DNA of 64,000 bases from the NCBI RefSeq assembly GCF_022430525.1, contig NZ_CP092519.1:310001-374000 (forward strand), read 5' to 3'. Source of the stretch: Cetobacterium somerae (GTDB lineage Bacteria > Fusobacteriota > Fusobacteriia > Fusobacteriales > Fusobacteriaceae). The notes under the pieces were generated by a model. That model worked only from the letters and a program-made list of their open reading frames with translations. It was not told the DNA's origin and searched no databases. Shown here one piece after another: positions 12,574-51,000 of the stretch (positions within the stretch are counted from its first letter, which is position 1; each line of letters starts with the position of its first letter). Both the position numbers and the translations under genes were made by a program.

Positions 12574-12586
12574 ACTACTAAAATTA

Positions 12587-12651
12587 TACGGCAAACTATG
12601 AGAAATCATAGGACGCAAAGCTATAGGGCCTGTAAAATGGCAGCCAGTTGC
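12587..12651 (+). promoter_or_regulatory. Cyclic-di-GMP-I (GEMM) riboswitch aptamer, copy 1
   Basis: The conserved core is present in order: GGCAAAC, a helix CTATGA closed by a GAAA tetraloop and TCATAG, GGACGCAAAGC, the GGGCC receptor segment, then ATGGCAGCC and GTTGC. These are the signature elements of class I cyclic-di-GMP riboswitches, including the tetraloop and its receptor side. The aptamer is nearly identical to the copy at 35391, but the tetraloop helix differs by compensating changes. A terminator starts at the last base of the aptamer. It sits about 120 bases upstream of a MarR-like regulator gene, its apparent target. Whether ligand turns expression on or off cannot be read by eye. 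Confidence 0.9.
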
Positions 12652-12690
12652 ACTTATTTCTTAAATTTAAGGGATAAGTGTTTTTTTTTT
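12651..12690 (+). terminator. Expression-platform terminator of riboswitch copy 1
   Basis: CACTTATTTCTTAA pairs with TTAAGGGATAAGTG (14 bp with two G-U pairs) and is followed by ten T. Its 5' arm begins at the 3' end of the aptamer, as expected for a ligand-controlled terminator. Confidence 0.85.
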
Positions 12691-33077: not shown

Positions 33078-35187
33078 AAATTTTATTAAATTCTTCATTG
33101 TAAGCTAAAAAAATATCAACAAGAGTGGGGTCAAAGTGTTGTCCACGCTCTTTTTTTATTATTTCAACAGCTTCTTCATGAGAAAAACCGTCTTTGTAAA
33201 CTCTTTTTTGACGCAAAGCATCATAAACATCTGCTATAGCTACAATTCTAGCCTCTAAAGGTATTTCATTTTCTTTTAAACCATAACAGTATCCTTTTCC
33301 ATTCCATTTTTCATGATGATAGAGAGCTATATTTTCAGCAACAGCTCCAAGTTGCATTTTATCAATAAGTTTTTTTCCTAAAAGAACATGTTTTTTCATT
33401 TCTTCAAATTCGTAAGGAGATAGCTTTCCTGGTTTTTTTAAAATTGAATCAGGAATTCCAATTTTACCAATATCGTGAAGTGAAGCATATTCACTAATCT
33501 CTTTAATAAATTTTTTATGACATTTTAGCTTTTCAGCTAAAAATTTCGAATAAAAGTTAACTCTTAGGATATGATTTCCAGTATCTTCATCATTTAATTC
33601 ATTGGCAGCTTCAAAGCTTTCAACTAATGCTCTAGTTATTAAACGCTCTTTCTTAGTAGCAATAGTAGCTTTTCTTAAAAAATAAAAAAGAGTTAGAATA
33701 ATTATAGAAGACATGGAAAACATAATTATAAAATATTTATAATTAGGAGATAATTTTTTAGGTATAACTAATTCACTATAAAGAATCCTGCTTTCAGATA
33801 GATGACTAGGAAAAAGTTTATCTATAAAATCAGCTAAATCAGAATCATTTTTTACTCCAAATCCAACGGGAGTAATTTTATTAAAAAATCCAGCAACTTT
33901 TATCTCATTTTCTAAATATTCATTAGAGATAGACATAGATATGATTTTAAAGTCTCCATAAAGATAATCAATCTCTTTATTTAAAAGTGCATTTAAAGCT
34001 GATTTTGTACTTTTAAAAAATTTAAAATCGTTCGATGTAATTATTTTTTTTATAGAATTTTTATTTAATTCTTCTGAAGAGATAAATCCAATTTTTTTAT
34101 TTTTAATATCTGAATAAGAATCGATAAAATTATTATTTGTAAGAGTAAAAGCAGCTAATTGAGATTCATAATATGGAATAAAAAATTTATTTTTTAGATT
34201 AAATAAATCTGTGTCAATAGCTTTAATATCATAGTTATCGTTAGGACTTTGGATATAATTGATAGGAATATCAGTTAAATAAGATAATTCTTTAAGGCGA
34301 TCAATAACATATCCATGATAACTTCCTTTAGATAGATAAAGAAGCGGAACTATTTCATTATTTGTGGGCAGTAAAACTTTAAGTTGCTTGTATCTATGTT
34401 TTAATTTATCAATAAGTGGGTCATTTTTTAAAAGTTGTTTATAAAAAATAAGACGTTCTTTTTTTAAGGAATCTACAACATATTTCTCAGAAAAATTAAT
34501 TTGAAAGTTTTCAATAATATCTTTTAACATGGGATATTTTTTATTTACAACTAACCAAAGTTGTGACGATGGAATATTTTTTAAAGGAATAAAATTATAA
34601 TTTTTAAAAACATCATTACTACTTTTGCCGATAATAGCATCTATTTTGTTATTTTCTAATGATGAAAAACCAAAATTACCATTATCTTCAATAGATATTA
34701 AATTTTTTAAATCTGGATAAAACTCTTTAGTTAATATAGAATCAGAAGTTCCATCAATATGACCAATTTTAAATTTATTTAGATTATTTAAATCTAAAGA
34801 TTTATTTTTCTTTGTAAATAAACCGACATTATACGTATTATAAGTTGGAATAAAAAAATAATTTTTTTCTCTTTCGGGAGTTTTCGCAACATTAAAAAGA
34901 ATATCTCCATCTCCATTTTTTAATAAATTTTTCATTTTCATTTTATTAGTTGATTGTATTTTAAATCTTAATCCAGTTTCTTGTTCTAGTTTTTCAAAAA
35001 ACTCCATATAAACGCCAGCTAATTCACCAGAATTTTTTTGATATAAATAGACATGGTTTGGATGGTATATATCAATTAAAAATATTCTATTTTTATTATT
35101 TTTAATCCATAATTTTTCATCTTTTGAAAATTCAAATGGGAATATATTTAAAAAAATGAGAAAAAAAAGAAAAAAAGATTTAATCAA
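33064..35187 (-). CDS. Membrane HD-GYP phosphodiesterase with two periplasmic solute-binding sensor domains
   Basis: 707 residues, starting at a TTG (35187) behind GGGGAGG. A signal sequence precedes two SBP family-3-like domains (about 25-235 and 255-475), a transmembrane helix (about 480-500) and an HD-GYP domain (about 515-700). The HD pair is in SLHDIGKIGIPDSIL (about residue 568). The second signature reads HHEKWNGKGYCYGL, with GYC where the family has GYP. The DVYDAL segment and the other metal ligands are present, so hydrolysis of cyclic di-GMP is expected, though the GYC change might alter it. The overall layout mirrors the GGDEF-EAL protein at 21431. Its start lies about 200 bases from the cyclic-di-GMP riboswitch of the pilus operon, in divergent orientation, which suggests local control of that operon. 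Confidence 0.9.
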   Translation of the reverse strand: MIKSFFLFFLIFLNIFPFEFSKDEKLWIKNNKNRIFLIDIYHPNHVYLYQKNSGELAGVYMEFFEKLEQETGLRFKIQSTNKMKMKNLLKNGDGDILFNVAKTPEREKNYFFIPTYNTYNVGLFTKKNKSLDLNNLNKFKIGHIDGTSDSILTKEFYPDLKNLISIEDNGNFGFSSLENNKIDAIIGKSSNDVFKNYNFIPLKNIPSSQLWLVVNKKYPMLKDIIENFQINFSEKYVVDSLKKERLIFYKQLLKNDPLIDKLKHRYKQLKVLLPTNNEIVPLLYLSKGSYHGYVIDRLKELSYLTDIPINYIQSPNDNYDIKAIDTDLFNLKNKFFIPYYESQLAAFTLTNNNFIDSYSDIKNKKIGFISSEELNKNSIKKIITSNDFKFFKSTKSALNALLNKEIDYLYGDFKIISMSISNEYLENEIKVAGFFNKITPVGFGVKNDSDLADFIDKLFPSHLSESRILYSELVIPKKLSPNYKYFIIMFSMSSIIILTLFYFLRKATIATKKERLITRALVESFEAANELNDEDTGNHILRVNFYSKFLAEKLKCHKKFIKEISEYASLHDIGKIGIPDSILKKPGKLSPYEFEEMKKHVLLGKKLIDKMQLGAVAENIALYHHEKWNGKGYCYGLKENEIPLEARIVAIADVYDALRQKRVYKDGFSHEEAVEIIKKERGQHFDPTLVDIFLAYNEEFNKIFIEH

Positions 35188-35350: not shown

Positions 35351-35379
35351 TTGAAATATAATAAATAAGATGATATATT
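35351..35379 (+). promoter_or_regulatory. Promoter of the riboswitch-pilus operon
   Basis: TTGAAA (35351-35356) and TATATT (35374-35379) with a 17-base spacer, about 12 bases before the aptamer. Confidence 0.65.
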
Positions 35380-35390
35380 AGTATTTCAAA

Positions 35391-35455
35391 TACGGCAAAC
35401 TGTAGGAAACTGCAGGACGCAAAGCTATAGGGCCTCTAAAATGGCAGCCAGTTGC
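35391..35455 (+). promoter_or_regulatory. Cyclic-di-GMP-I (GEMM) riboswitch aptamer, copy 2
   Basis: All core elements of copy 1 recur: GGCAAAC, a helix CTGTAG-GAAA-CTGCAG, GGACGCAAAGC, GGGCC, ATGGCAGCC and GTTGC. Compared with copy 1 the unpaired core is identical, while the tetraloop helix differs at four pairs: three changed on both strands and one that becomes a G-U wobble. This is direct evidence for a conserved RNA structure. It leads the chaperone/pilin/usher/adhesin operon that begins at 35582. The stretch 35188-35350 upstream shows only A/T-rich sequence. Confidence 0.92.
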
Positions 35456-35498
35456 ACTTATCTTTTGTAAATTAGATTACAAAGGCTAAGTGTTTTTT
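35455..35498 (+). terminator. Expression-platform terminator of riboswitch copy 2
   Basis: CACTTATCTTTTGTAA pairs with TTACAAAGGCTAAGTG (one wobble, one mismatch), six-base loop, then seven T. As in copy 1, it starts at the last base of the aptamer, although the stem sequence has diverged. Confidence 0.85.
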
Positions 35499-35581
35499 TA
35501 TTACTTTAAATTTTTTAAAAGAAAAGTGTAAAACAAAAAGTATAAAGATTCGAAATTATAAAAAATATAGGGGGGAACAAG

Positions 35582-36307
35582 ATGAGGAAAACTTATCAAA
35601 TTTTATTAACATTTTTATTAACATTTTCTGTAACATTTTCATTTCATATTGCACCAACGTTTTTCGAAAAACGTATCGATGCCAGTGGAGGGTATCAAGA
35701 GTTCATAATGTATAATAACAGCACAAAAACACAAAGATTTAAAGTAAGTACACTTCCAGGAACAGGAACATACGGAGGTCATATGGATAAATGGGTTGAA
35801 TATAACCCTAAAATAATAACAATTAAACCTAAAAGTCAAAGTGTTTTAAAAGTTTTTGTAAAAGCTCCAAAGGGAACTCCAGAAGGAGAATACTCAACAT
35901 TTTTAAATTTTAAATCAGTTCCTGTACCAGATATCACAAGAGATGATGGTAAAAGTGTTGCAGCAGCAGCAAGCATAGGACTTAATGTAAATATAGAAGT
36001 TATAGGTTATGTTGGTGATTTAAAAGCAAAGTTAGAAATAACTAATTTAAAAGTTACTGAAAATAACGAGGGACAAGCAGTGGTATCTTTTAAAGTTAAA
36101 AACAATACTCTTAAAAGAGGAATTTGGTATAACATAGATGTTATGAATGGAAATGAAAGTCATGAGTCAGTGGAAAAAGGTAGAATTGGAATTGGAAAAA
36201 CAGATGAAATAACTTTAACTATGAAAAATATGAAAAAAAGAGATGTAGTTGGAGTTAGGCTTAGAGATTCTTCAACATATGAGGATATTACTAAGAAAGA
36301 ACTTTGA
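35582..36307 (+). CDS. Periplasmic pilus chaperone-like protein (first chaperone)
   Basis: 241 residues with a signal peptide (about 1-20). The first domain looks like a PapD-type immunoglobulin fold: IAPTFFEKRIDASGGYQEFIMYNNSTKTQRFKV, then IITIKPKSQSVLKVFVKAPKGTPEGEYSTFLNF. The second beta-rich domain is LKAKLEITNLKV through KKRDVVGVRLRDSSTYEDI. Such chaperones hold pilin subunits in the periplasm and deliver them to an outer-membrane usher. It is the first gene after the cyclic-di-GMP riboswitch, followed by a pilin-like gene and, further on, a second related chaperone (37033) and an usher-like barrel. Two chaperones per operon recall the alternate (CFA/CS1-type) systems. Strong GGGGGGAA site. 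The family is inferred from pattern and context. Confidence 0.72.
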   Translation: MRKTYQILLTFLLTFSVTFSFHIAPTFFEKRIDASGGYQEFIMYNNSTKTQRFKVSTLPGTGTYGGHMDKWVEYNPKIITIKPKSQSVLKVFVKAPKGTPEGEYSTFLNFKSVPVPDITRDDGKSVAAAASIGLNVNIEVIGYVGDLKAKLEITNLKVTENNEGQAVVSFKVKNNTLKRGIWYNIDVMNGNESHESVEKGRIGIGKTDEITLTMKNMKKRDVVGVRLRDSSTYEDITKKEL

Positions 36308-36374
36308 TATCAAATAAACTTGATATATATGGGAACAAAATAAAAAATAAAAAGAAAATTTAGGAGGTATTAAA

Positions 36375-36953
36375 ATGAAAAAAGTTTTATTCGGAATCAT
36401 GGCATTATCAATTGCAGCATTTGCAGCAAATCCAGGGACAGATAGCGAAGCATCAGTACCAGTAAAGGTAATAGCTGAGATAATCACTGCACCTACAGGA
36501 CTTACTATAACTGATGAGGCAGGAACAGTTATTGATGAATTATTATTAGACCACGGAAGAATAGTTAAAGGTGCGGCAACAAGTGATTCAGTAGCATACA
36601 AACTATTTAAAGTTCAAAGATTTGATGGAACTAAACCTACAAAAATTGGTGCAGGAACTTTAAATGTAAAATTAGATGAGGCAACAACAACATTAGCAAA
36701 AAATGGAACTTCAACTGCAAGCACACTAACATCAGCATTAACTTTAACTGGTGGAGCAACTCAAGTGTCTTCAAAAGAATATACTCATACTACTGGAGCT
36801 GATGATACAGAGCACGTAGGAAGAGTAACATCAACTATAGCTAAAACTGAATTATTAAAAACTGGGATAGAAACAGGTATTCACCACAACTCAAGAGAAA
36901 GAACTTTAACTGTTGTTTATACACCAGCAAAACCAACAGAAGGAGGAAAATAA
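36375..36953 (+). CDS. Putative major pilin-like subunit
   Basis: 192 residues, signal peptide cleaved near AAFAA. The mature start (ASVPVKVIAEIITAPTGLTITDEAG) resembles the donor strand and first strands of alternate chaperone-usher pilins such as CFA/I major subunits, which begin with a VTVTA-type segment. The rest is Thr/Ala-rich and beta-rich, with no cysteines, and ends ERTLTVVYTP plus a short tail, as expected for a subunit that ends in a beta strand. It lies between two chaperone-like genes and is followed by a terminator, an arrangement that makes the major subunit the most abundant product. Ribosome-binding site TAGGAGG. Identification rests on position and pattern; homology was not tested. 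Confidence 0.6.
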   Translation: MKKVLFGIMALSIAAFAANPGTDSEASVPVKVIAEIITAPTGLTITDEAGTVIDELLLDHGRIVKGAATSDSVAYKLFKVQRFDGTKPTKIGAGTLNVKLDEATTTLAKNGTSTASTLTSALTLTGGATQVSSKEYTHTTGADDTEHVGRVTSTIAKTELLKTGIETGIHHNSRERTLTVVYTPAKPTEGGK

Positions 36954-36965
36954 TTCCTTTAAACT

Positions 36966-36993
36966 TAGAGAGAAGTCTCTTCTCTCTTTTTTT
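36966..36993 (+). terminator. Intra-operon terminator after the pilin-like gene
   Basis: AGAGAGAAG, three-base loop, CTTCTCTCT and seven T. No promoter was found between it and the next gene, so it probably acts as a partial terminator that lowers downstream expression. Confidence 0.8.
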
Positions 36994-37032
36994 AAGAGAA
37001 TTATATATTAAATAAAATACGGGGGCGGTTTT

Positions 37033-37761
37033 ATGAAAAACATTTTTATTCTTTTTTTCCTTTTAACTTTTAATATCTTTGGATATGTAAATATAAATCC
37101 TGTTACCTTTGATAGAAAGATTGATGGTAAGGGAGAAGTACAGGAATACACTTTGTATAACCCAACTCAAAATACATTAAAGTATCAACTTTATTTAACA
37201 GATGAAAATATAGAAAAATCTATGAAAAATTGGATTGAGATATTCCCTACAACAATTACTTTAAAACCAGGGCGTAGTGGAAAATTTAAAGTCTTTGTAA
37301 AAGCTCCAAAAGGCGCTCCAAGGGGTGAGTATTTAGTAACTGTTGGAGTTAAAGAGATAGCATTACCAAAACTTAATTCAACAGATACATCTTCAGTTCA
37401 AATTTTAACACACTTAAAAATGGATTTAGCAGGATATATAGGAGATTTAATTCCCAAAATATTTTTAAAAGATTTTTCAGTTACTTTAAATGATAATAAC
37501 CTTAATTTCCATGGATTAATAGCCAATGTTGGTGAAAGAAGAGGTACATTAGATTTTTACTTAGCTGAAAACAAAGGGAAAAACCCTATTTATGTTGGGA
37601 ATTTAAGACTTCTAAAAAATGAGAAAATTAAAGCTTCAAAACTAAATCAAAAATTAACAAAACATGATAAAGATTTAATAAAAAATTTTTCTAAATACAA
37701 TATTTTAATTATTAAAGATTCATTAAGTAAAAAAGTCTTGTATGAGAGAGAGATTAAATAG
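37033..37761 (+). CDS. Periplasmic pilus chaperone-like protein (second chaperone)
   Basis: 242 residues with signal peptide (KNIFILFFLLTFNIFG). It shares the framework of the first chaperone: INPVTFDRKIDGKGEVQEYTLYNPTQNTLKYQL, ITLKPGRSGKFKVFVKAPKGAPRGEYLVTVGVKEI, and MDLAGYIGDLIPKI at the domain junction, the same place where the first has IEVIGYVGDL. The second domain is more divergent and lysine-rich. It probably serves a different subunit, for example the large adhesin at 41502, as in systems with one chaperone for the major and one for the minor subunit; this is inference. It stands 18 bases before the usher-like gene. Strong GGGGGCGG ribosome-binding site. Confidence 0.7.
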   Translation: MKNIFILFFLLTFNIFGYVNINPVTFDRKIDGKGEVQEYTLYNPTQNTLKYQLYLTDENIEKSMKNWIEIFPTTITLKPGRSGKFKVFVKAPKGAPRGEYLVTVGVKEIALPKLNSTDTSSVQILTHLKMDLAGYIGDLIPKIFLKDFSVTLNDNNLNFHGLIANVGERRGTLDFYLAENKGKNPIYVGNLRLLKNEKIKASKLNQKLTKHDKDLIKNFSKYNILIIKDSLSKKVLYEREIK

Positions 37762-37779
37762 TTAAAGGAGGTGTTATTC

Positions 37780-40437
37780 TTGAAGTTAAAATCAGTAATA
37801 TATCTACTAGCATTTCTATGCTTCTCACTATTAACTCATTCAGCAGAGTTCACTTTAGAGGAGCTAAATGAATTAAAAGGTTTAAATATGATAACAGAAG
37901 AGGAGTATCAAATCCTTTTAAATGAGTTAAAGGGTGTTCAAGAAAGAGAAAACTTTTTTAATTTAAAAGTTAATGGAGCAAAAGTTAGTGATGTATACCC
38001 AGTTATAGTTCAAGATAATAAAATATACCTTCCTGTTATAAATCTATTTAATACAATAGGCTTTAAAGACTATACAATCCAAAGTGAAATTTTAAAAGCA
38101 ACTTTAGGAACAGAGGTTAGAGAGATTACACTAAAGCCAAGTGATTCCTATGTTATAGTAGAGCAAAGTGATTTCTTTGTAGAGAGTGAAAAGTTTAAAG
38201 AACTATTTTTAAGAGAGTTATACTTAGATCAAGAAAACTCAAGTGTTTCAATGAGACTTAGCTTTGAAACTACAGCAGAGATAGAAGCATATTTAGCTAA
38301 TGTTAAAGATGGATTAATTGATGCAGAAAACGCTGGAGAACTTATGTTTACAAGTGAGCGTACTCTATTTGATGTGGGATATATGCGTTTTGATTTCCAA
38401 GGAGTTTTAAATAAAGCTGGAAAGGATTCTGAAGATAGAAAATTAGAAACTGATTGGACAGGAAATTTAGAATACCAAGGACCACTTTTTTATGGAGAGT
38501 TTACAGCAGCTTATGATGTGAGAAATAGTGAACTTGGAAATACAAGTTTATACTATCCTGATATCTATAAAAATCACTCTTTAAAATTAGAAAATAATGG
38601 TAGCGGAGGAGCTAGGGAGTGGGCAGCAAGCTTTAAAAAAGAGCGTGGGTATTACATTAAAGGTAAAAACTATGTAATTCGTGAAACTGTTCCTATTGGA
38701 AGTAGAGTAGAGCTGTTATACTTGGGATTTCCCATTGAAGTTAAAGACGCTGTAGATGGAACTATAGAGTTTGACAATTCAGAGATTCAAGAGAATAGAC
38801 GTTACACTTTAAGAGTTTATCAACCAGATGGAAGAATATATACAATAGATATAGATACTGCTGCAAACTATTTTCAACAAAACAAAGGAGAGACAGAGTA
38901 TGATATCTCTTTCCGTGAAGTGGATCAATATGATAGATACTCAATAAATGCTAATCTATATCACGGTATCACTCAAAATCTAACTTTAGGATTAGGATAT
39001 GTACATGAACCTGAGGATGTTGGTGATGGACGAATTGAGTATTTAGAGCATATTAGAGGAGAGGTTGTATACAGTAACTATATTTATAGATTCCCATACA
39101 CTTTAGTTCTTGGAACAGAGCGAGCACTAAATACAAGTGTAGTTAATGAAGAGGGAGTTAGTAACAAAGATAGATATTCGTATGATGGAACATTCCAAAT
39201 TGATATAAAAGATTTTAGATTTATAATTGATAGAGCACAATATGGAAAATATTTTGATGAAAAATCAGATGAAAGTTACTCTATAACATATAATCCAACA
39301 GGAATTTTTCAAATTAACTATGAGTGGAGTAAAACAAAATATAATATAGACCAAGATGATAACAATGATGAAAGTGTTGGTTTAAATATTAGTAAAGGTT
39401 GGAAAGATTTTCTACTTTCTCTAGATTACAATAAGTCCTTAAATCAAGAGGATAGTTATGAAGTTAATATGTATTACAATGGATTTAAAAAGTATAACGT
39501 ACAACTTACAAACTACTGGTTAGAGGATGGAAAGGATTTAGAAACAACTTTAAGATTAACAAATAAAAATATCTTTAGTATATTTGATTACTCCCTAGAG
39601 TTTGGCTATTCAGATTCATACAAAGAAAAATTTACATTTAGATTCACTTTAGATTATGATAACTGGTTTAGAAGTGAAGTTAACTTTGATGAAAGTGGTG
39701 CTCAAAGATACTCTGCTGGTATAAATAGAGTTGTGGATTTGAAAAATATTAGAAAGCCACTGGAAAGCATTGATAGCACTAGAGTTAAAGTTATAACTTT
39801 CCTAGATAAAAATGATAACGGAATTATGGACGCTGATGAGGAAAGAGTAGACTATGTAGCTGTAAAAATTGGAGACCAAGAGATAGATACTGATGAAAAT
39901 GGAGAAGCTATGTTCTTTGGAGTTCCTAATAAAATAGTTTATGATATGAAACCAACAATTAGAAAACCATCATATACAATTGGAGATACAAAGATAAAAA
40001 TACTAGGACAACAAGTTGGAACAGTTACGGCACATATTCCTATAAAACCAATGGTTACTATAGTTGGAGAGATTCAAGTAGATAAAAATTTAAATTTGAA
40101 AGATAAAGAAAAAGAGGCTTTATTTGAAAATATACTTATTAAAGTTTTAGATGAAAAAGGCAAGTTAATAGAGTATTTAAATCCAGAAAGTGATGGAACA
40201 TTTGAAGTTAGTGGGTTATATGCTAGAAAATATATGTTACAAATTGAATATATAGGTGTGGATAATAAAGCCAGAAAGATCGCTGAGAATGTAGTGTTGG
40301 GGTACTATGATGATAGAGAGAACAGGTTTATTATCCACTTAGATAAAGAAAGATTAACACTTAAGCAGATATTCTTAAGTGAAGGAGGAAAGTATGAAAA
40401 AGTTATTAGTTCTAATACTAGTCCTTCTAAGTTGTAA
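37780..40437 (+). CDS. Outer-membrane usher-like protein
   Basis: The start is the TTG at 37780, 8 nt behind AAAGGAGG; a GTG at 37771 overlaps that site. The product has 885 residues with a signal peptide. The N-terminal part (about 25-175) has a periplasmic domain (YPVIVQDNKIYLPVINLFNTIGF). The middle (about 190-650) consists of alternating beta strands of a barrel. A plug-like segment near 305-350 reads VPIGSRVELLYLGFPIEV and RRYTLRVYQPDGRIYTI, close to the usher pattern in which a surface loop begins with VEL and ends with a Gly-x-x turn. The C-terminus has a DKNDNGIMDADEERV calcium-type loop and a beta-sandwich, as in alternate ushers. It should translocate subunits held by the two chaperones. 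The assignment is by pattern and operon context. Confidence 0.68.
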   Translation: MKLKSVIYLLAFLCFSLLTHSAEFTLEELNELKGLNMITEEEYQILLNELKGVQERENFFNLKVNGAKVSDVYPVIVQDNKIYLPVINLFNTIGFKDYTIQSEILKATLGTEVREITLKPSDSYVIVEQSDFFVESEKFKELFLRELYLDQENSSVSMRLSFETTAEIEAYLANVKDGLIDAENAGELMFTSERTLFDVGYMRFDFQGVLNKAGKDSEDRKLETDWTGNLEYQGPLFYGEFTAAYDVRNSELGNTSLYYPDIYKNHSLKLENNGSGGAREWAASFKKERGYYIKGKNYVIRETVPIGSRVELLYLGFPIEVKDAVDGTIEFDNSEIQENRRYTLRVYQPDGRIYTIDIDTAANYFQQNKGETEYDISFREVDQYDRYSINANLYHGITQNLTLGLGYVHEPEDVGDGRIEYLEHIRGEVVYSNYIYRFPYTLVLGTERALNTSVVNEEGVSNKDRYSYDGTFQIDIKDFRFIIDRAQYGKYFDEKSDESYSITYNPTGIFQINYEWSKTKYNIDQDDNNDESVGLNISKGWKDFLLSLDYNKSLNQEDSYEVNMYYNGFKKYNVQLTNYWLEDGKDLETTLRLTNKNIFSIFDYSLEFGYSDSYKEKFTFRFTLDYDNWFRSEVNFDESGAQRYSAGINRVVDLKNIRKPLESIDSTRVKVITFLDKNDNGIMDADEERVDYVAVKIGDQEIDTDENGEAMFFGVPNKIVYDMKPTIRKPSYTIGDTKIKILGQQVGTVTAHIPIKPMVTIVGEIQVDKNLNLKDKEKEALFENILIKVLDEKGKLIEYLNPESDGTFEVSGLYARKYMLQIEYIGVDNKARKIAENVVLGYYDDRENRFIIHLDKERLTLKQIFLSEGGKYEKVISSNTSPSKL

Positions 40438-40957
40438 TATATTGGCAAGTGAGTTGGTTCATATACCAACTACCTTGCCTCTTTTACCAGAGGATTATGA
40501 AAACCAGCCAAATCTTTTGCCAGCGATTCCTCTTATTCCAGCTTTACCTAGTGAAGAGTCTACAATAGATGGAACTGGAGAAGAGGTAAAATGGAAGTTA
40601 GAAGATTCATATACAATACATTTAGATACAAAAGTTAAAGCAGTTGTACCTTTAGAAATTATAACAGATGTTGATATAAAGGCACTTATTATAGATGATG
40701 AGCAAGTTACAATACCATTTGAACTAGAGATGAATAAAGAACCTGATAAGCAAAATTTCTATGTTTTAAATTATAGTGAAACTGAGATAGACATAGATGG
40801 AGATGGTACTTTAGACACGTTTATATATGCACCAAAATATATTAACAAAAAGCTAGTTACTGATAACTATCTATTTATAGATGGTAAAAATATATCTCGT
40901 GAGGGTGTACATAAGAAAAAAGTTTATATAACTGTTGAATTAAATGAGAGGAGATAG
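40394..40957 (+). CDS. Exported protein of unknown function in the pilus operon
   Basis: The start is the ATG at 40394 behind GGAGGAA; it lies inside the end of the usher gene, giving a 44-base overlap in another frame. The product has 187 residues. The N-terminus KKLLVLILVLLSCNILA is a signal sequence and contains LLSC, a possible lipobox. A proline-rich stretch follows (LPLLPEDY, LLPAIPLIPALP), then a beta-rich part with a DIDGDGTLD loop of the EF-hand/dockerin calcium type. I do not recognise the family. Position between usher and adhesin suggests a minor subunit or assembly factor; this is inference. Confidence 0.6.
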   Translation: MKKLLVLILVLLSCNILASELVHIPTTLPLLPEDYENQPNLLPAIPLIPALPSEESTIDGTGEEVKWKLEDSYTIHLDTKVKAVVPLEIITDVDIKALIIDDEQVTIPFELEMNKEPDKQNFYVLNYSETEIDIDGDGTLDTFIYAPKYINKKLVTDNYLFIDGKNISREGVHKKKVYITVELNERR

Positions 40958-40959
40958 TC

Positions 40960-41505
40960 ATGAGAAAAAATATAGTTTTGATAGTCTTTATGACTATCTT
41001 TTCAATGAGTTTTAGTGAGATAAAAGTAAAAATAGTTGAGCCACTTAGATTTCGAGATATAAATCACACAGAGGTTGGACCTAACCAAGTTGTAGCAGTA
41101 TCTCATGTGGAAATCTATACAACTGATAAAGAAAAAGATTTAGGAAAGAGAATAACTTTTAAATTTCCGAATTTTGTTAATATGACGAATAGAAAAAAGT
41201 GGGTAAAAGTTGAAAGAGTTGGAATGGATCGAAAACAAAATGAGATAATACTTGAAAATGAGAGGGAGTTAGTTAAGTTTTATGCTATTTTAGATAGACG
41301 TGAACTTGATAAAGGTGAAAGTATTGAGGTTATAGAGGGAGAGTATGTTGGGCAATTACCAATAGTTATGGGAGTGTACTCATTGGTAAATGCAAATACA
41401 AAACCAGTAGAACCAATACCAAATCCTGAAGGGGAAAATAGACCACAGATATTACCTATATTTCCAGATGAAATACCAAATGAAAACAAAGGGGGAGAGC
41501 TATGA
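40960..41505 (+). CDS. Exported protein of unknown function in the pilus operon
   Basis: 181 residues with a signal peptide (RKNIVLIVFMTIFSMSFS). The mature part begins EIKVKIVEPLRFRDINHTEVGPNQVVAVSHVEIYT, a beta-rich stretch, and ends in a Pro/Asn/Glu-rich tail (VEPIPNPEGENRPQ). It could be a small beta-sandwich minor subunit, which is a guess. It begins two bases after the previous stop behind GAGAGGAG, and its last codons overlap the adhesin start by four bases (ATGA), so all three are translationally coupled. Confidence 0.6.
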   Translation: MRKNIVLIVFMTIFSMSFSEIKVKIVEPLRFRDINHTEVGPNQVVAVSHVEIYTTDKEKDLGKRITFKFPNFVNMTNRKKWVKVERVGMDRKQNEIILENERELVKFYAILDRRELDKGESIEVIEGEYVGQLPIVMGVYSLVNANTKPVEPIPNPEGENRPQILPIFPDEIPNENKGGEL

Positions 41506-44500
41506 GTAAAAAGTTAAAGAGTTTTCACAAGCTCTTTTTTATAATATTTTTTTCTTTTTTATTCTCTTCAATTGTTGAAAGTGGAAACACACCTGATCTT
41601 CCAGATAGAATAGCACCAGAGCTAGAAAAAATAGAGGCACTTCCTAGAAGGACAAAGCCAGCTGAGTTAAATATAGAAGTTACAAAGATAAAAAGTGAAC
41701 CTTTAGAAGATGTATATATAGATAGGAAAAATAAAAATATATACGTAGACTTTTCTAAAAAAAGAGAGCAAGCTCTTAAAGGAGTTAAAGATACTGAAGA
41801 TTTAGAAAAAAAATATAATTTAATAGTGAGCGAAAGTGTTCAAGGTGATAGTGAAGTAAATGGAAGAAGTAAAATCAAAAATAAAAGTAATTCACAAGTT
41901 ATGAGTTATGAAGTAGTTGAATATCAAGGAAAAAAAGTTTTGAAAATACCATATGAAAATGAACCAGAGAAATTTTATATATCAGTTCAGGAAAACGGAA
42001 GTGGAAAGCTTATAAAAGTATACGGGGTGGATATTGAAAAAGCTCGCAATGTAGAAAAGCAAGTTATTGAAAGAAAAGAAGCAACAGTTACATATTTGAA
42101 TGGATATCATAGAGAATGGATAACACTTAATAGCAATGGAAGTATAAATGGTAATGGAGTAGAATTAACTAAAGAGAACTTTACATCTGGAAATATAACA
42201 GGATTTAATTATGGATGTACATCAATTAAACATAATCATAATATTTTAGTAGGTATAGAGAATAATACACCTGTTCAAATACCTGAAAGTTTGGGAGCAA
42301 ATTATAGCGATAGATATATATCAATTGGAGAAATGCAAATATTTATGAGAATTTCATGTAATGGGGATTATATACAATTTTATATAAGTAAATTACCAAC
42401 GAATAAAAAAACTTACAAACTTAAAATCCTTTATACAAATACAACTGGTCAAATAAAAGAGCACACCCTAAATCTAACTGAAGGTTATCTTGAACAATTG
42501 ATGACAATTACAAATTCGTTGAGTGATATTATAATACAAGATGTTGAAAATATTACACAAGATATTTATACTTTTGGCAATGTGAGTTTAGAACAAACTA
42601 GTCAAACAGTTCTATACGATCAAGCATTTCCTGTAATAGGATTAGGTCCTGAATTAGAAATAAATAGAGATGGATGGAGAGCTGAAACTTATAATCCTAA
42701 CGAAAAAAGAACCATTTCTATTATAGATAGTTTTAAAGATGGAAATAACAATATTTTAAATGCAAATTTATATTTTACAGATATAAATCCAAATGGTGGC
42801 ACTTTATTAGAGAGGTCGACACAAGTAGGAAAAAAAGAGATAACAGCAATGGGTAGTCATAAGCTTAATACTAAAGAGAAAATAGGTGGAAATCTTGTTG
42901 CAGAAATAAATTTGGATGAACTAAAAACTATTCTTAGTAATTTTAGAAGTGTCAATTCAACGGAACTTACACTTTCATCTTCAAAACCAGTGGGAGAACA
43001 ACTAACTTTTGCAGGCGGACAATATACCTATAGTTATACTTGGGGTAAATATTTATACTATTATTTAGCTAATCAACCTAAAGTATTTAAAAAAAGTGTA
43101 AAATATCCAAATATAAAAATAGTAAAGCCACAAATAACTGAAAACTCGCAATTAGAAATCAATAAGACTCTTAATACAAATAATTATATAGTCTTTAATG
43201 CTAATGGTATAAATCCAGAAGTAGGAGTAGTTTGTCCGATACCTGGAACTAGAAGTTTGAAGTCTTTACATTTTAATGGGACATATACTTTAAATAATGG
43301 TAATAAAATAGATATTGACGCTACAGGAAACTCAGTGATAAATACAATAAATATTTTTAATGGATTGAACACTTTAAATTTAGAAATTAAATATGAAGGC
43401 AGATATCCTAAGATAAAAATATTAAATAAACCTATGGCAGGAATTTATAAATTAAACATAAAACATTATGAACCAAGTGGATTAGAAAGATTAAACTACA
43501 ATTTAGATATAGTTATTAAAGAAAATTTTACTAAAGAAAGATTAGCAACAATAACTTATTTAAAGGGATATGATAGATTAATGTTAGATAAACAAGGATT
43601 TGAAAAAATTAATTTTGATACATGGGGAAACCCAAATGTAAATACAAGTACCAATGAATATATAAAAGTTGATATAGATGGAGAATTTATATCAGGATTA
43701 ACTGGGGGTAGTACTGTAAAAATAAAAAATAAAAATGGAGAATTAATAAAAGAAGTTAGTGGTATTGAAAAAGAGATAGACTTAGGAGAGGTGAAACTAT
43801 TTTTTAGTAATCAGGGGTTCTTTAGTTTACAAATGAAAACAGTAGAAAATCAAAAAATATTTGAATACATAATTGAACATTATAATAATAACGAATTGGA
43901 GTTAAAAGATAAATTAAATATAAAATCTATTCAAGAAAACGTTATTGATAGAGAAGCTACGTTAAATTATAAAGAGGGATATGACCACTATTTTGTAAAA
44001 AAAGTAGACATAGACTCTCAAGGACAAATTACACCAGGGATACCAGTAGAATTAATAAGAGATAACTTTCCTAGTGGGTTTATAACAGGTTTAAATACGT
44101 CTCCTGCAAATGATTATGAGATAAAAGTGAAAATAATAAGATTGAATTTAGATGGGACTGATTATATCCCAAGAGAAGAGAAAGTAGGAGGAATAGAAGA
44201 ATCTCTAATAATGAATGATTTTGATTTAACAGTGGGAAAAAATGGTATGTCTGTTATAGTTAAGAACTTAAATAATTCTAATAGTTATAAATATAGAATA
44301 GAACAGTATATAGAAGTTGGTGGAATAAGAGTATTAAAAAATAAAGATATTTTGAATATAAGAAGTAAAAATATAAATAAGGAGTTTGAAGTAACATGGA
44401 ATATGAAAGATATAATTATTATTCCAGATCCAAATGGAGATCCAAATAAAACAAAAATTGAATATCCAGATAATTGGGTAAAAATAACTCAATTAGTAGA

Positions 44501-47500
44501 TGATAAGAAAAAATTTCCAATAATTGGAATTAATCAAGTTTTAGGAGAAATGCAAAATATTTGGAGTCTAGAAACACAAACTCCTTTAAATCCAATTAAC
44601 CATAAACCTTTTGCAAGTTTAGCTATTACTTCATCAAATGGAAGTAATATAAAAGTTCCTATAAATATAAGAGAAACACCATTTCAAAAAGCAGAAAAAT
44701 TTTTAGTTTATGATCGTGGAGATATGACAAATAGAAATACAGCTGTTGGAGCGTACACACCTTTAAATTCTTTAAATATTTCACCTTTAAATAATGAAGT
44801 CCAAGTAGATTTTGAAATGATTTTTGAAAATATTCCAACAAGTCAAATGGAAGCTATATTAAAGTATGCAAAAGAAAAATTTGAACAAGGACAAACTAAA
44901 GTAGAAATACCATACTTAGATTCTAAAAATTTTCATAAAATATTAGCTATAAGAGGTCTACAAGAAAGTACTGAGTCAAATCAAATTAAGTATAGAGTAA
45001 ATAATAGTAATATTTTAACTTATGGAATTATAGATTTTCCAAAAATCTATGTAATTAAAGATGAAAATATGATAGAGAGTAATACAGCTACATTGAATTT
45101 TAAAAATCCAGTACCTAAATCAAATAGAGATATATCAGGAACATTTGATATAAAAAATGGAACTATAGAACCAAATAATTTGCCAGAATATAATCATCCT
45201 AGTTCTTTAATTGTTGAAGGATTGACATCTTCTTGGCATGGAGTTGCAAATATTCCAGAATATCATAAAATAAAAATATATTCAGGAACAGATATAGGAG
45301 AGGGGATAACTCCAGAAGCGGAGTTTATGACGACAGAAAATGGAGAAATAAAAGGAGTTCATACAATAAAAACAAAAAATAATAAATATGTTTTTATGAA
45401 AGGTAAAAATACATCATTAGCTGTTGGAGTTTTAGAATGGAATTTTATGGAAGTATTGGAAGAAGTTATAACTTTAGTACATTATAATAATGTGGGAAGA
45501 ATAATTGCAAAAGATACCTATAAAATGAATATAGAAGAGTTTTTACCTAAAAAATATTTAGATGTTACAAACTCTACTCTTATAAATAAAATAGATGTAA
45601 ATAAAACTTTAAAGGTAACAGTTGATGCAAGACAAGATTTTATAGAGTTAGGAAGTCTTAAATTGGAAAATTATCAAAAGGACATAACAAAAACAGTAGA
45701 AGATACAAAAGGAATAAAAATAGAGGCTTTATCAAAGGAAATAACTTTATCAACAACTTCAGATAATGTATTTTTAAAAGGTAATTTAAAGTATGATAAT
45801 GGAAATAAAGATATATCAAATCCCAATGAGAGCGCTAACTTAAGATTTGTATTATCTCAAGAATCTATAGATAATATAGAAAATTTGATAGGAAAAACAT
45901 TTTCGTTAATGACTCCCCTAGAATTAATAAAAATTAGTGGTGGGAAAAAAAATGAGGTCCTTTTAAATAATCTAATCATAACTTTAAGTAATGCTCAAAG
46001 TGGAAATTTATCAAGTATGACTTATATATCAACAGTTACAAATTTAAAAGTTAAAGATATAGATAGTGTAATTGCTACTAATAAAACTAAATTTGATTTA
46101 GATGGACAAATGACTTTAAGGCAAATTAATAGTGGACAAGGAAATTCAGTTCCAGCAATAGCTATTGGTAATTATACTGTATGGAAATTTGGAGTTGATG
46201 GAATAGCAAAAAGAGATAGAAGTAATTCTAGAACGAATAGAACAGAGTTAAAAGTTCAATATGAAATAGTTGGAAGTAATCCAGTGAAAAAGATAGAAGT
46301 TTTTCCAGAATTAACTAAATCAAAAACAAAAGCAACTCAAGATAATTTAAACTATAATAGGCCAATAAAATTATATATAGAGAAAAATTCTGATGATAAA
46401 ATTTTAACAGCAGTATCATATGCTGAGTACAGAGATACTATGAGTGAAAGAATAACAACAGGTTTAACTTTAAATATTCCGATAGAACAATTAAAAGTCA
46501 TAAAAAATGAATTAAAAAATATAAAAGGAGATATTATAGAAATAAAGCCGATAGGAGAAAATGCTAAAATAGCATATATTCATGGAAGAGATATTGGAGG
46601 AAGTGGAGTTTCAACCAATGGAAATACATTATCATTACCTACAGATACAAATATTACGAGTAGATATATAGAGGAGTTACTTCCAAGTATATTCGTAGAT
46701 AAAGAAAAATTAAATAAAAATTTAGAGATTAATCTTTTACCAACATATCCTTTAAAAGATGAACAAGAAAAAATTATTTTTAAAAGTACAGAACCTCCAT
46801 TTTATTCAGCTGGGAAAGTAATAATAAATCCTACTAATGATAATAGAGTAATAGAAGGATTAAATTATCAACATAAAATCAAATTAACTTTACCAGGAGG
46901 TGAAATAAAGGAATATACTACTTCACTTGATGGATCGATAACTATAAAAGAGATTATAGAAAAAAATGCTAAAAGTATAACTTTAAATATAGATTATAAA
47001 TCAGGAAATGAAGTGCATGTTTGGGTGACAAATAGAAATGGAATACAATATTATGATTTAGTTTTACAGCATATAGATCCTTCTGGAGATATTAGAAGAA
47101 CAACAAATCTTAGAATTAATTCTGGATTAGAAGGTTCGACTTCAATAAAGCAAGGTGAGGTGGACTTAACTATTAGTTCAAGATATAATCCAATAGATGG
47201 TCAATTAAATAGTGAACCTATTTTAATAACTAAAGATGGAATAAAGTATCAAACAGAGGTTCTAGATTTAAAGCTTTTAAATGGTGATTATCCTGTTGAA
47301 CTAAAAGTTGGACAAAAGGCGTATATACGAAGTACAGAGATCTTGGAAAATAATTATACAACAATTACTTTAGGTAAAGGAACTAAAATTAAAGCAAAAA
47401 GGGAAGCTAATGGAGATTTGAAAATTAAACCTATCTATTGGAATTATAATGTAGAAGACGAGTTTGTATTAGAATATAAAACAGAAGATACATTGACTAA

Positions 47501-47891
47501 TCAATATAAGTTTAATGTAAAATGTCCTGAGTTCTTTATAGCATCATCTGGAGTTTTAGATTTTGGAAAGTTATATAAATTTGGAAGCCCCCAAGATAAA
47601 ACAGTTACAACAAATATAGATCTACATTATAATACGAATGTAATTGCTGAATATTCTTTGGATATTTCTCAAGGAAAGTTAAATATAGGAGCTGAAATTT
47701 TTGAAAATTATCTATACTTAGATGATAATAAAACTTTATTAGTTAAAGATTTATTTTTAGGAGAAGAATTAGGAAAAGAAACTACAAAAAGAATACTTCC
47801 TTTAACGGGGACAATCCATGGTCCAAGTATTCTAAAAGCATCAGAGGGAAAATATGAAAAAACTATACAAATTTTAATTCATTTAAAATAG
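41502..47891 (+). CDS. Very large putative tip adhesin / terminal pilus subunit
   Basis: 2129 residues with a signal peptide (about 10-30). Three copies of a module of the type ATVTYLNGYHREW, ATITYLKGYDRLM and ATLNYKEGYDHYF (near residues 194, 682 and 819) show internal duplication. The middle is Asn/Ile/Lys-rich and beta-rich without recognisable enzymatic motifs. The last 110 residues resemble a pilin domain: SSGVLDFGKLYKFG, TTNIDLHYNTNVIAEYSLDIS and a C-terminal GKYEKTIQILIHL strand. It would therefore be held by a chaperone and incorporated by the usher at the tip. CFA/CS1 tip adhesins are about 360 residues, so this one would be about six times larger. It ends the riboswitch-led operon and is followed by a terminator. 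Function is inferred from layout. Confidence 0.6.
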   Translation: MSKKLKSFHKLFFIIFFSFLFSSIVESGNTPDLPDRIAPELEKIEALPRRTKPAELNIEVTKIKSEPLEDVYIDRKNKNIYVDFSKKREQALKGVKDTEDLEKKYNLIVSESVQGDSEVNGRSKIKNKSNSQVMSYEVVEYQGKKVLKIPYENEPEKFYISVQENGSGKLIKVYGVDIEKARNVEKQVIERKEATVTYLNGYHREWITLNSNGSINGNGVELTKENFTSGNITGFNYGCTSIKHNHNILVGIENNTPVQIPESLGANYSDRYISIGEMQIFMRISCNGDYIQFYISKLPTNKKTYKLKILYTNTTGQIKEHTLNLTEGYLEQLMTITNSLSDIIIQDVENITQDIYTFGNVSLEQTSQTVLYDQAFPVIGLGPELEINRDGWRAETYNPNEKRTISIIDSFKDGNNNILNANLYFTDINPNGGTLLERSTQVGKKEITAMGSHKLNTKEKIGGNLVAEINLDELKTILSNFRSVNSTELTLSSSKPVGEQLTFAGGQYTYSYTWGKYLYYYLANQPKVFKKSVKYPNIKIVKPQITENSQLEINKTLNTNNYIVFNANGINPEVGVVCPIPGTRSLKSLHFNGTYTLNNGNKIDIDATGNSVINTINIFNGLNTLNLEIKYEGRYPKIKILNKPMAGIYKLNIKHYEPSGLERLNYNLDIVIKENFTKERLATITYLKGYDRLMLDKQGFEKINFDTWGNPNVNTSTNEYIKVDIDGEFISGLTGGSTVKIKNKNGELIKEVSGIEKEIDLGEVKLFFSNQGFFSLQMKTVENQKIFEYIIEHYNNNELELKDKLNIKSIQENVIDREATLNYKEGYDHYFVKKVDIDSQGQITPGIPVELIRDNFPSGFITGLNTSPANDYEIKVKIIRLNLDGTDYIPREEKVGGIEESLIMNDFDLTVGKNGMSVIVKNLNNSNSYKYRIEQYIEVGGIRVLKNKDILNIRSKNINKEFEVTWNMKDIIIIPDPNGDPNKTKIEYPDNWVKITQLVDDKKKFPIIGINQVLGEMQNIWSLETQTPLNPINHKPFASLAITSSNGSNIKVPINIRETPFQKAEKFLVYDRGDMTNRNTAVGAYTPLNSLNISPLNNEVQVDFEMIFENIPTSQMEAILKYAKEKFEQGQTKVEIPYLDSKNFHKILAIRGLQESTESNQIKYRVNNSNILTYGIIDFPKIYVIKDENMIESNTATLNFKNPVPKSNRDISGTFDIKNGTIEPNNLPEYNHPSSLIVEGLTSSWHGVANIPEYHKIKIYSGTDIGEGITPEAEFMTTENGEIKGVHTIKTKNNKYVFMKGKNTSLAVGVLEWNFMEVLEEVITLVHYNNVGRIIAKDTYKMNIEEFLPKKYLDVTNSTLINKIDVNKTLKVTVDARQDFIELGSLKLENYQKDITKTVEDTKGIKIEALSKEITLSTTSDNVFLKGNLKYDNGNKDISNPNESANLRFVLSQESIDNIENLIGKTFSLMTPLELIKISGGKKNEVLLNNLIITLSNAQSGNLSSMTYISTVTNLKVKDIDSVIATNKTKFDLDGQMTLRQINSGQGNSVPAIAIGNYTVWKFGVDGIAKRDRSNSRTNRTELKVQYEIVGSNPVKKIEVFPELTKSKTKATQDNLNYNRPIKLYIEKNSDDKILTAVSYAEYRDTMSERITTGLTLNIPIEQLKVIKNELKNIKGDIIEIKPIGENAKIAYIHGRDIGGSGVSTNGNTLSLPTDTNITSRYIEELLPSIFVDKEKLNKNLEINLLPTYPLKDEQEKIIFKSTEPPFYSAGKVIINPTNDNRVIEGLNYQHKIKLTLPGGEIKEYTTSLDGSITIKEIIEKNAKSITLNIDYKSGNEVHVWVTNRNGIQYYDLVLQHIDPSGDIRRTTNLRINSGLEGSTSIKQGEVDLTISSRYNPIDGQLNSEPILITKDGIKYQTEVLDLKLLNGDYPVELKVGQKAYIRSTEILENNYTTITLGKGTKIKAKREANGDLKIKPIYWNYNVEDEFVLEYKTEDTLTNQYKFNVKCPEFFIASSGVLDFGKLYKFGSPQDKTVTTNIDLHYNTNVIAEYSLDISQGKLNIGAEIFENYLYLDDNKTLLVKDLFLGEELGKETTKRILPLTGTIHGPSILKASEGKYEKTIQILIHLK

Positions 47892-47908
47892 AATAATAAT
47901 AAAAAAAT

Positions 47909-47957
47909 AGTACTATAGAATAAGTGGAAATGTTCTATTAGTACTTTTTTTATTTTT
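47909..47957 (+). terminator. Terminator at the end of the pilus operon
   Basis: AGTACTATAGAA with TTCTATTAGTACT (one bulged T) and a T run. A shallow A/T-rich stretch to 48035 holds the ribosome-binding site of the next gene; no convincing promoter was found there. Confidence 0.75.
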
Positions 47958-48043
47958 TTATAAAACTTTTTTTAATAAAAAGGAACGAAAAGAAAACGGT
48001 TGAAGAAACATTTAAATAAAAAAATTAAAGAGGGGTGAAGTTA

Positions 48044-51000
48044 ATGAGAGATAAAAGATACTTAAAAAAGATATTATTTTTATCAGCTTTTCTTATTGTA
48101 GTACGGAGTGTTTACACAGAAGAAAAGGTGGATAACCAAATTATTTTAAAAGAAATTTCCACAAATACTGATGTTCAAGTTGATTTAGATAAACCATACG
48201 AAGAACAAAATTTAATCACACCAGGTAAAATAATTTTAAAAAATAACGGGGGATATATTTATTCCATAGTCGATCCAATTCCAAGAGAACCCAAGCTTTC
48301 AATAAAAGCAAATAAAAAACAAAATATAGACTCTGAGAGAGTCGAGTTTTTTATGTATACAAATTATCAAGAGATTATAAAAAAATGGGAGATATTGGTT
48401 TATGATGAAGAAGATATTCATAAACTTGATCCAATAACAAAATTAGAAGGAACAGAAATTATTTTAAATAAACCCATAGTTTTTGAATATTCTAAAGAGA
48501 AAATAAAAGAGGGAGATAAGTATTTTTATACTTTAAAAGTTTATGATAAAGATGGTCGTTTTGATCAAACAGATATTTATCCATTAGAGTTTGTATCTCC
48601 TATTAATTCAAATAAAAGTGTAGATATAGCAAATAGTATTTATGGAGACGATGGAGTAGTTACAAGAAATATTCAACTTAAAGGCTCTAAAGTAAGAGTT
48701 TATGGAAAAGACTTGCAAGGAGTTCAGAAGTTATCTATAAATAGTCAGCCGGTAAATTTAGATTATAAGGGAGATTTTGCATATGAATATTATACTGACA
48801 TGATAGGAGATTTAAATTTGCCTGTCTTAATGACAGATATAGAGGGAAATGAATATAACTATGGAATGGATATATATCTTCCATCAAGTTATAGTTTTGC
48901 AGTAGGAATAGCTGATTTATTTGTAGGTAAAAATTATGTCTCTGGTAGTGATGCAATTCTTCAAGATAACTATAAATATGATGAAAACGTATTTTCTTCT
49001 GGTAGATTAGCTTTTTATTATAAGAAAGTATGGGAAGATTATAGATTAACAGCTCAAGCGGACACTTGGGAACAAGAGACTAAATATTTATTTAAAGGAT
49101 TCTCTAAAAGAAGACCAAGAGATTTATTCGAAAAATTAGAAAGAGATGATATTGAATTTAATTTAGGAGACGAGTCAACGTATTATAAAGATACTGATAC
49201 TGCAGGTAAGTTTTATGTGAAATTAGAAAAACAAAAGTCTAGTATTTTATGGGGAAGCTTTAATACTGGATTTACAGGTAATTATTATGCAGACTATGAT
49301 AGAAGTTTGTATGGTCTTCAAGGTTTATATAACAGTAATCAATCCACCAAATTTGGAGATACAAGGACTCAAGCAAATATTTTTGTAAGTGAACCAGAGA
49401 CACTTTTTACAAGAGATGAATTTAGAGGAACAGGAGGAAGTGTTTATTTTTTAAGTTTTCAAGATATAGTTACGGGTAGTGCTAAAGTGAAGGTTCAAGT
49501 AACTGATGGAAGGACAGGTAGAATTTTAAGAGAGATAGTTTTACAAGATGGAAGAGATTATGATGTAAATGAACTTCAAGGTAGAGTTATTTTAAAGAAT
49601 CCTTTACCATCGATAATTGCTACAACAGAAGGAGGAGTAATAAAGGATGAACCTTATTACGGAGATAATGTAAATTTAGTTGTAGATTATGAATTTTATT
49701 CTGGAGATACAGACTTTGCAAAAACAACTTACGGAGTTAGAGGGAAATCGTGGATAACAGATAATGTTGCAATTGGAGGAACATTAGTATCAGAATCTAG
49801 GGGAGATGAGTTACAAGACTATGAATTACAAGGTGTAGATGTAACTTTAAGAAAAACAGATAATACATTTATGAGATTTGAATATGCTCATTCGAAAGGA
49901 ACTCAAGCTTTAGTGAATAATTTTTCTTTTAATGGTGGTTATGATTCGTTTTTAGATAGAGATAAATATGAAGAGATTATAAGTAATCCTATGAAATATT
50001 TTAACAATATATCAGGAGATGCATACTCTGTATCAGGAGAAATAGCTTTTAAAGATTTTAGTAGAAAATTTGATGATAGAGATAGTGGAACTTTTTGGTA
50101 TAACAGAAAAGATAAAGGATTTTCAACAGCGGGCTTCTCAAATAGTAGCGAACACGATGATTATGGATTTACAAGTAAGTTTCAATTGACAGATAAATGG
50201 GATATTGGATTTGGAGCAAATAAGTTTAAAGAAAACGATTCAGATTTGTATACAGGATACCCAATATCACTAGAAGAAGATAGAATAAATACAACTATAG
50301 GATATCAATACACAGAAAAATTAAAGTTATCCGCTGAAATTGAATATTTAAAAAATAAAGAAAATGGGGTAGAAGACTTAGATAATCTTAAGGAAGAAGC
50401 AGTATTAGCAGGAGTTAGAGCGGATTATGAGTTTCAGCCTAACAGAACAATATATGGAATAGTTCAAACTGCAATCTGGGATGAAAATTATGGAGCAAAT
50501 AATATTTATACTTTAGGGACAGATTTAAGAGTAACAGATAAATTTAAATTAAATGCAGAAGGTAGTACAGGAAACAAAGGTAATGGTGTTGAAATATTAG
50601 GAACATATGACTTTACTCCAGAGCATAGTCTTTATATGGGATATGCATTAGATGATAATGATGACTTTGGATCAAATTATGGCCAAGAACATACATTCAC
50701 AATTGGACAGAAATTCTTGTATGATGAAAAGACATCTATGTATCATGAAAATCAATTTTTAAAAGACAATGTTGGGAAAGGTGTTCTACAATCTTATGGA
50801 GTAGATTATACATATTCTGAAGATATGACAATTGGAGCATTAATTCAAGATGGTGATTTAGAAACTTATGATGGAAATTTATCAAGAACGTCTGTAAGTC
50901 TTTATAGTAGATATTATAAGAGAGATTTTATGATAAAAAATAAACTTGAATTTGGAAAAGATAGAGGTGCAGGAATGTCAGCTGATAGATGGGCTACGAT

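Follow-up and report, generated by a model that had tools for sequence, protein, structure and literature searches.

In the 64,000-nucleotide stretch of the Cetobacterium somerae genome analysed here (the window; contig NZ_CP092519.1), seven genes headed by a riboswitch for cyclic di-GMP (c-di-GMP) very probably encode all parts of a chaperone-usher pathway that would assemble a pilus and belongs to a divergent, non-classical branch present in the Fusobacteriaceae. An initial annotation had proposed a riboswitch-led operon of the chaperone-usher type, and this was borne out by the aptamer, the fold of the usher, the PapD-like chaperones, subunits linked through profiles and a conserved gene order. 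All open reading frames of that annotation were verified in the window sequence. On the plus strand the operon comprises chap1 (241 residues; 35582-36307), the major pilin (192 residues; 36375-36953), chap2 (242 residues; 37033-37761), the usher (888 residues; 37771-40437), two small genes termed sm1 (187 residues from the ATG; 40394-40957, with a GTG at 40379) and sm2 (181 residues; 40960-41505), and an adhesin (2129 residues; 41502-47891). The gene junctions are tight, as sm1 begins within the usher gene, sm1 and sm2 are spaced by 2 nucleotides and sm2 and the adhesin gene overlap by an ATGA. Behind the adhesin gene the operon is closed by a predicted terminator (47909-47956, plus strand; stem at about 47909-47949 followed by U7) with a folding energy of -12.4 kcal/mol (z = -3.4, 0 of 200 shuffles as good).

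The search of other genomes that the initial annotation had suggested returned the same gene order, chap1-pilin-(chap2)-usher-sm1-sm2, at about 37 loci, so that the operon is not a product of chance. Loci with the architecture of the window are referred to as class 1, ushers without sm1 and sm2 as class 2. The 38 scored class-1 loci represent 37 distinct ones, as one was counted twice. No product of the window operon exceeded a Pfam or NCBIfam cut-off in the library scans. As each part is too divergent for standard protein-family libraries, a system of this kind is easily overlooked. Its identity as a chaperone-usher pathway was accepted because the usher fold, transitive matches to the Pfam families Usher, PapD_N and SCPU, and the conserved operon agree.

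An AlphaFold model of the usher, built with 22 sequences (mean predicted local distance difference test, pLDDT, 79.6), exhibited an N-terminal domain at residues ~60-190, six strands, an all-beta plug insert at ~300-362 and then about 18 more strands, with a pair of beta domains at the C-terminus (~696-770 and 788-881). This layout, which is that of PapC and FimD, includes the plugged barrel anticipated by the initial annotation. In a Foldseek search of the model against the PDB, matches 1 to 19 were all FimD or PapC, with E-values from 6.1e-25 (over 890 columns) to 6e-8 and up to ~900 aligned columns; the first other match followed at 7e-8 and TonB-type barrels at 6e-7. The usher profile furthermore reached one protein each in G014 (E = 3e-58) and G080 (E = 7e-78), and these proteins pass Pfam Usher with 44.9 and 44.5 bits (cut-off 27.1). 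In most usher-bearing genomes, that of the window included, no usher reaches this family (PF00577). The description of the window usher as atypical was correct. Direct sequence-profile searches of the PDB with the usher, the pilin and chap2 yielded nothing useful, and a plasmid search with the usher yielded no match. At one locus (L159:5758-8753) the usher gene lies in two adjacent frames and is probably a decaying copy.

The two chaperones, likewise predicted to be PapD-like, were supported by profiles. Chap1 matched PapD_N with an E-value of 0.0019, which is below the curated cut-off, and relatives aligned with it matched this family with values of up to 3.6e-6. Of 98 Fusobacteriota genomes, 19 have PapD_N matches above the cut-off, many of them lying beside the ushers described here. 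The chap1 profile also found CsuC (E = 0.005), and chap2 is homologous to chap1 (hhalign E = 2e-41). Pro59 of CsuC is the only invariant residue of the whole chaperone superfamily (PMC4654587); the proline aligned with it, P76 of chap1, is invariant in the chap1 alignment. Arg89 of CsuC and EcpB, which is conserved in archaic and alternate, i.e., non-classical, chaperones, anchors the C-terminus of the subunit (PMC4654587). This arginine was not seen in class 1, where the aligned position is occupied by phenylalanine in chap1 of the window, an assignment of moderate confidence given the weak alignment. The residue after the GEY motif is K or R in 29 of 31 class-2 chaperones, whereas class 1 mostly has S, T or G there (K in nine). 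Matches of chap1 to HYDIN were set aside, as they were scattered over many weak pieces of immunoglobulin (Ig) domains. In some class-1 operons (L054:6791-7216, L055:11850-12266, L056:10117-10527, L149, L150 and L155) chap2 is a single Ig-type domain of ~136-152 residues that is relocated behind sm2.

The product of the second gene carries an N-terminal extension with alternating hydrophobic residues (PVKVIAEI). Comparison of the exported class-1 proteins by hhalign with their signal peptides on gave signal-peptide matches only and was hence repeated with mature sequences. Mature class-1 and class-2 pilins were then aligned with an E-value of 3e-6 over 139 columns, and the class-2 subunits of the sister operons pass the cut-offs of SCPU and DUF4402. 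The window pilin is thereby connected to the SCPU family by profile-profile comparison only, and the pilin-like subunit of the initial annotation was upheld as a probable pilin. A pilin gene is present at 35 of the 38 scored class-1 loci, and in nearly all operons it is the gene immediately behind chap1. Downstream of it in the window lies a hairpin followed by T7 (36967-36994, plus strand; hairpin at 36967-36987). Hairpins below -6 kcal were present in 16 of 26 gaps between pilin and chap2, compared to 0 of 27 between chap1 and pilin, 0 of 29 between chap2 and usher and 0 of 34 between usher and sm1, counts which include close relatives and one duplicate locus. Given its base composition, the window hairpin itself does not stand out (z = -0.3). 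In other chaperone-usher operons, an excess of the major pilin is known to arise by partial termination or processing behind its gene. The hairpin is a likely partial terminator that would set such an excess.

The initial annotation had named the two small genes of unknown family between usher and adhesin as a departure from the alternate gene order. This needs correction, as they are conserved core parts of the operon: sm1 was found next to 35 and sm2 next to 34 of the 38 scored class-1 ushers, and two or more of the absences are due to contig ends. With a mean column identity of 54% (alignment A5), sm1 surpasses all other proteins of the set in conservation; the usher reaches 41% in an alignment (A4) that also contains three class-2 members. 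A nearly invariant DxDxDGxxDT segment in sm1 looks like a possible calcium loop. The core of the sm1 model has a pLDDT of ~95. When 350,542 PDB chains were searched with it by Foldseek, the first 20 matches were without exception subunits of type 1 pili, while PapA, CfaB, CsuA/B and SafA followed at lower ranks. Judging from this model, sm1 is most likely a minor pilin. Sm2 begins at a strand-like segment directly after its signal peptide and ends, as subunits do, with GEYVGxxPIxxxxY; it is tentatively proposed to be a subunit without an N-terminal extension. Mature sm1 and sm2 gave E-values of 0.07-0.14 when compared by hhalign with the SCPU/DUF4402 subunits of the sister operons. Many class-1 operons also encode small proteins which by eye are LysM-like and lie between sm2 and the adhesin (L045, L048, L050, L054 and L056, not the window operon). 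These might perhaps anchor the machinery to the peptidoglycan.

In the adhesin, the first ~180 and the last 119 residues are conserved between class-1 operons, while the middle is variable. The conserved C-terminal part (LDFG... GKYEKTIQILI; 47532-47888, plus strand) matched the class-2 pilins with an hhalign E-value of 6.5e-8, again with mature sequences, which confirms the pilin-like C-terminus noted initially. No Pfam domain was found in the adhesin, and a BLAST search of the protein against itself revealed no internal repeats, though ATxxYxxGY segments that resemble each other can be seen by eye. The initial annotation had put the size of the protein at about six times the usual; as the length varies between ~820 and ~2130 residues among loci with the conserved C-terminus, size alone is not diagnostic.

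The leader of the operon contains a c-di-GMP-I riboswitch aptamer (RF01051; 35384-35459, plus strand; 58.6 bits, gathering threshold 35) and an intrinsic terminator (35454-35500, plus strand; stem at 35454-35493 followed by U7; -15.8 kcal/mol, z = -3.8, with 1 of 200 shuffled sequences folding equally well), so that both elements of the initial annotation were found again. The promoter proposed with them (TTGAAA-17-TATATT with a TG before the -10 element; 35351-35379, plus strand) matches 10 of 12 consensus positions, but such matches were no commoner than in shuffled sequence (92 observed, 99.8 expected), and it is therefore a candidate only. The 5′ arm of the terminator uses the last 6 nucleotides of the aptamer, and an overlap of 6-10 nucleotides between terminator stem and aptamer 3′ end was present in each of the 14 leaders checked. 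As a result of this overlap, formation of the terminator and holding of the aptamer by its ligand should be mutually exclusive. Transcription would start upstream of the aptamer and, without c-di-GMP, end at the leader terminator, while binding of c-di-GMP would hold the 3′ end of the aptamer, block the terminator and allow the operon to be read. The overlap hence suggests that c-di-GMP turns the pilus operon ON.

An Rfam scan of the window yields two c-di-GMP-I aptamers; its own genome holds eight. Four of the eight precede chaperone-usher genes, namely the window operon, a class-2 operon, a cassette of three pilins (L180) and one lone pilin gene (L181), while SBP-GGDEF and GGDEF-EAL genes lie behind others. 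Across all 91 usher loci, a same-strand aptamer was located at most 9 kb upstream in 29 cases (9 of 37 class-1 and 20 of 54 class-2 ushers), at mostly recurrent distances of ~2.3 kb for class 1 and 4.3-5.3 kb for class 2. Approximately half of 37 sampled aptamer loci, a sample biased to the best match per genome, lead into chaperone-usher genes or an SBP-type protein that opens class-2 operons. The two orphan pilin cassettes of the window's genome (L180:9873-11273, three genes; L181:4974-5471, one gene) exceed the DUF4402 cut-off and lie directly behind c-di-GMP-I riboswitches, with no chaperone or usher adjoining; they possibly provide exchangeable subunits for ushers elsewhere. The second aptamer of the window (12580-12655) is followed by a gene for a 96-residue MarR/winged-helix regulator (12774-13064).

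A gene that is not part of the operon flanks the riboswitch in divergent orientation (33067-35187, minus strand). It encodes an SBP_bac_3 and HD-GYP-type protein (HD_5, E = 3.5e-33) that is likely a c-di-GMP phosphodiesterase and could possibly act as a local brake. Its adjacency is not kept in the class-1 relatives examined. The same kind of protein occurs inside class-2 usher operons, among them that of the window's genome (L039:5469-14258), in which a riboswitch is followed by the SBP and HD-GYP-type gene, a peptide-binding-like protein, a pilin-like protein of 279 residues, the usher, a MORN-like protein and a chaperone. The presence of a likely c-di-GMP phosphodiesterase inside an operon with a c-di-GMP riboswitch suggests feedback.

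Taken together, a pathway can be proposed in which the subunits would be exported by Sec and capped by the two PapD-like chaperones, each supplying a beta strand. The usher barrel would then accept the adhesin first, followed by sm2 and sm1 as tip or linker subunits. The adhesin is placed at the tip because its pilin domain lies at the very C-terminus, as it does in tip adhesins. The usher would subsequently polymerise the major pilin by donor-strand exchange into a pilus with a very large tip adhesin, for which the hairpin behind the pilin gene, by stopping part of the transcripts, would provide chap1 and major pilin in excess.

The closest relatives of the operon are class-2 operons (L039, L152, L170 and L175; the class-2 usher of the window's genome is encoded at C1:610015-612534). 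Their ushers match with an hhalign E-value of 1e-66 over 716 columns, and they share PapD-like chaperones, pilins and, in part, the riboswitch. However, they lack sm1 and sm2, their pilins have a plain LDFG motif and pass SCPU/DUF4402, nearly all of their chaperones carry the basic residue after GEY, and many encode HD-GYP and MORN-like proteins. A relation to archaic pili (Csu of Acinetobacter, CupE) is indicated by the match of the chaperone profile to CsuC and by the SCPU/DUF4402 subunits of the sister operons, although the window usher is far from PF00577, the hallmark basic residue was not seen in the class-1 chaperones, and the operon adds sm1/sm2, a riboswitch and a giant adhesin conserved at both its N- and its C-terminus. 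With classical type 1 and P pili (FimD, PapC) the operon shares the fold and domain layout of the usher and the pilin-like fold of sm1, but class-1 ushers and chaperones exhibit no convincing sequence similarity to them, direct hhalign comparisons with FimC and FimD of E. coli giving weak pieces at most, and the window subunits are non-classical. The operon would best be filed as an archaic-related, divergent fusobacterial branch of the chaperone-usher pathway.

The initial annotation had instead seen a kinship to the alternate (CFA/CS1-type) systems. Membership in this alternate (alpha) clade, acquired from Proteobacteria, would fit with the two chaperones, the large tip protein with a C-terminal pilin domain and the order chaperone-pilin-usher-large adhesin, as well as with the presence of CfaB among the lower fold matches of sm1 and a single match of one relative to Fimbrial_CS1 of Pfam, below its cut-off. 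Apart from that match, no Fimbrial_CS1 pilin or alpha-type usher was found. In hhalign comparisons with the E. coli common pilus (ECP) of strain K-12 (EcpA/B/C), neither usher nor pilin matched and the chaperones gave only a weak match of the N-terminal domain, whereas the sister subunits pass SCPU/DUF4402 and the nearest relatives are archaic-type operons of the same family. As the 98 Fusobacteriota genomes searched had ushers in a single family and the scan of all genomes with sm1 returned the same family only, a recent transfer is unlikely, and alternate-clade membership as a whole is highly improbable. Still less credible is a chance resemblance of an unrelated barrel and Ig-like proteins. 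It would agree with the failure of every operon product to reach a curated cut-off, but the fold search with the usher, the transitive family matches and the conserved operon concur against it, and by computation it is very unlikely.

Two further alternatives leave the machinery intact; both are rather unlikely. The machinery might be real without building a long pilus, serving to export the giant adhesin and to anchor it on a short stalk or a thin coat at the surface. The adhesin is far larger than the other subunits and variable, with usher, sm1 and sm2 as the constant core, and the number of pilins differs between operons, several being present in some and one in others. This is, however, difficult to reconcile with the presence, at nearly all class-1 loci, of a dedicated pilin that has an N-terminal extension of its own, and with a hairpin positioned such that it would raise the share of this pilin. 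Concerning regulation, the riboswitch could be an OFF switch in which c-di-GMP promotes terminator formation and pilus expression is repressed. While c-di-GMP-I riboswitches of both signs are known, the use of the aptamer 3′ end by the terminator in every leader checked renders this direction improbable.

Several observations weigh against a riboswitch-controlled chaperone-usher pilus. The template modelling (TM) scores of the usher matches are low (best ~0.46; predicted TM-score of the model 0.57), and comparison of single sequences with FimD, FimC, EcpC and EcpA yielded nothing convincing. The hhalign E-values given here are single comparisons. None of the Foldseek E-values of sm1 is individually significant (best 0.11); sm1 is considered pilin-like because of the uniform retrieval of pilus subunits, not because of single values. 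For sm2 no convincing homologue was found outside class 1. In the leader, the P1 helix of the aptamer is not clearly visible, so that the ON direction is derived from the overlap. Moreover, the nine class-1 ushers with a riboswitch all stem from one genus, and the riboswitch is not a general class-1 feature.

The usher profile matched 40 of the 98 Fusobacteriota genomes, all of one family, with seven genera positive and up to six ushers per genome; none was found in other families, and several genera of the positive family were also negative. The initial annotation had remarked that chaperone-usher systems are not a hallmark of Fusobacteriota; in this one family they are common. The sm1 scan over the contigs of all genomes returned only Fusobacteriaceae, and near-identical loci were found on contigs of Cetobacterium or uncultured Fusobacteriaceae. 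According to two reviews from 2026, F. nucleatum lacks a chaperone/usher pathway (PMC12940168, PMC13432900), which is compatible with the negative genera of the family. In one genome (L054) two class-1 operons lie head to head, with ushers 37-38% identical to that of the window.

The literature search retrieved no report of a chaperone-usher pathway in Fusobacteriota, and for chaperone-usher pili combined with a c-di-GMP riboswitch it returned eight co-mentions, with no title or abstract describing such a case. The operon is a variation within a known pathway; for the branch itself no description was found in the literature searched. It seems reasonably probable that it constitutes an undescribed third non-classical branch in Fusobacteriaceae, with an obligatory pair of sm1 (with its metal-binding-like loop) and sm2, chaperones that have lost the non-classical anchor, tip adhesins that are giant and exchangeable and, in Cetobacterium, a pilus regulon under direct control of c-di-GMP riboswitches that includes the orphan pilin cassettes. 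The operon would extend the pathway to a phylum for which no report was found in the literature searched, with other genera of the family of F. nucleatum carrying multiple ushers. A usher this divergent would be useful for comparing assembly mechanisms, and the operon would represent a case of chaperone-usher pili wired directly to c-di-GMP by riboswitches. As Cetobacterium is a dominant genus of the fish gut, its surface attachment is also of practical interest.

Downstream of the operon, the window encodes a large exported protein of 1187 residues (48035-51598) and a DUF11-repeat protein of 3975 residues (51613-63540). Inclusion of the pair in the operon was weighed and dismissed, as a terminator lies in between and most class-1 loci lack the pair. 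At locus L058 such a pair follows a class-2 usher operon. Within the DUF11-repeat gene, an antisense frame of 2813 residues is open on the minus strand (53342-61783).

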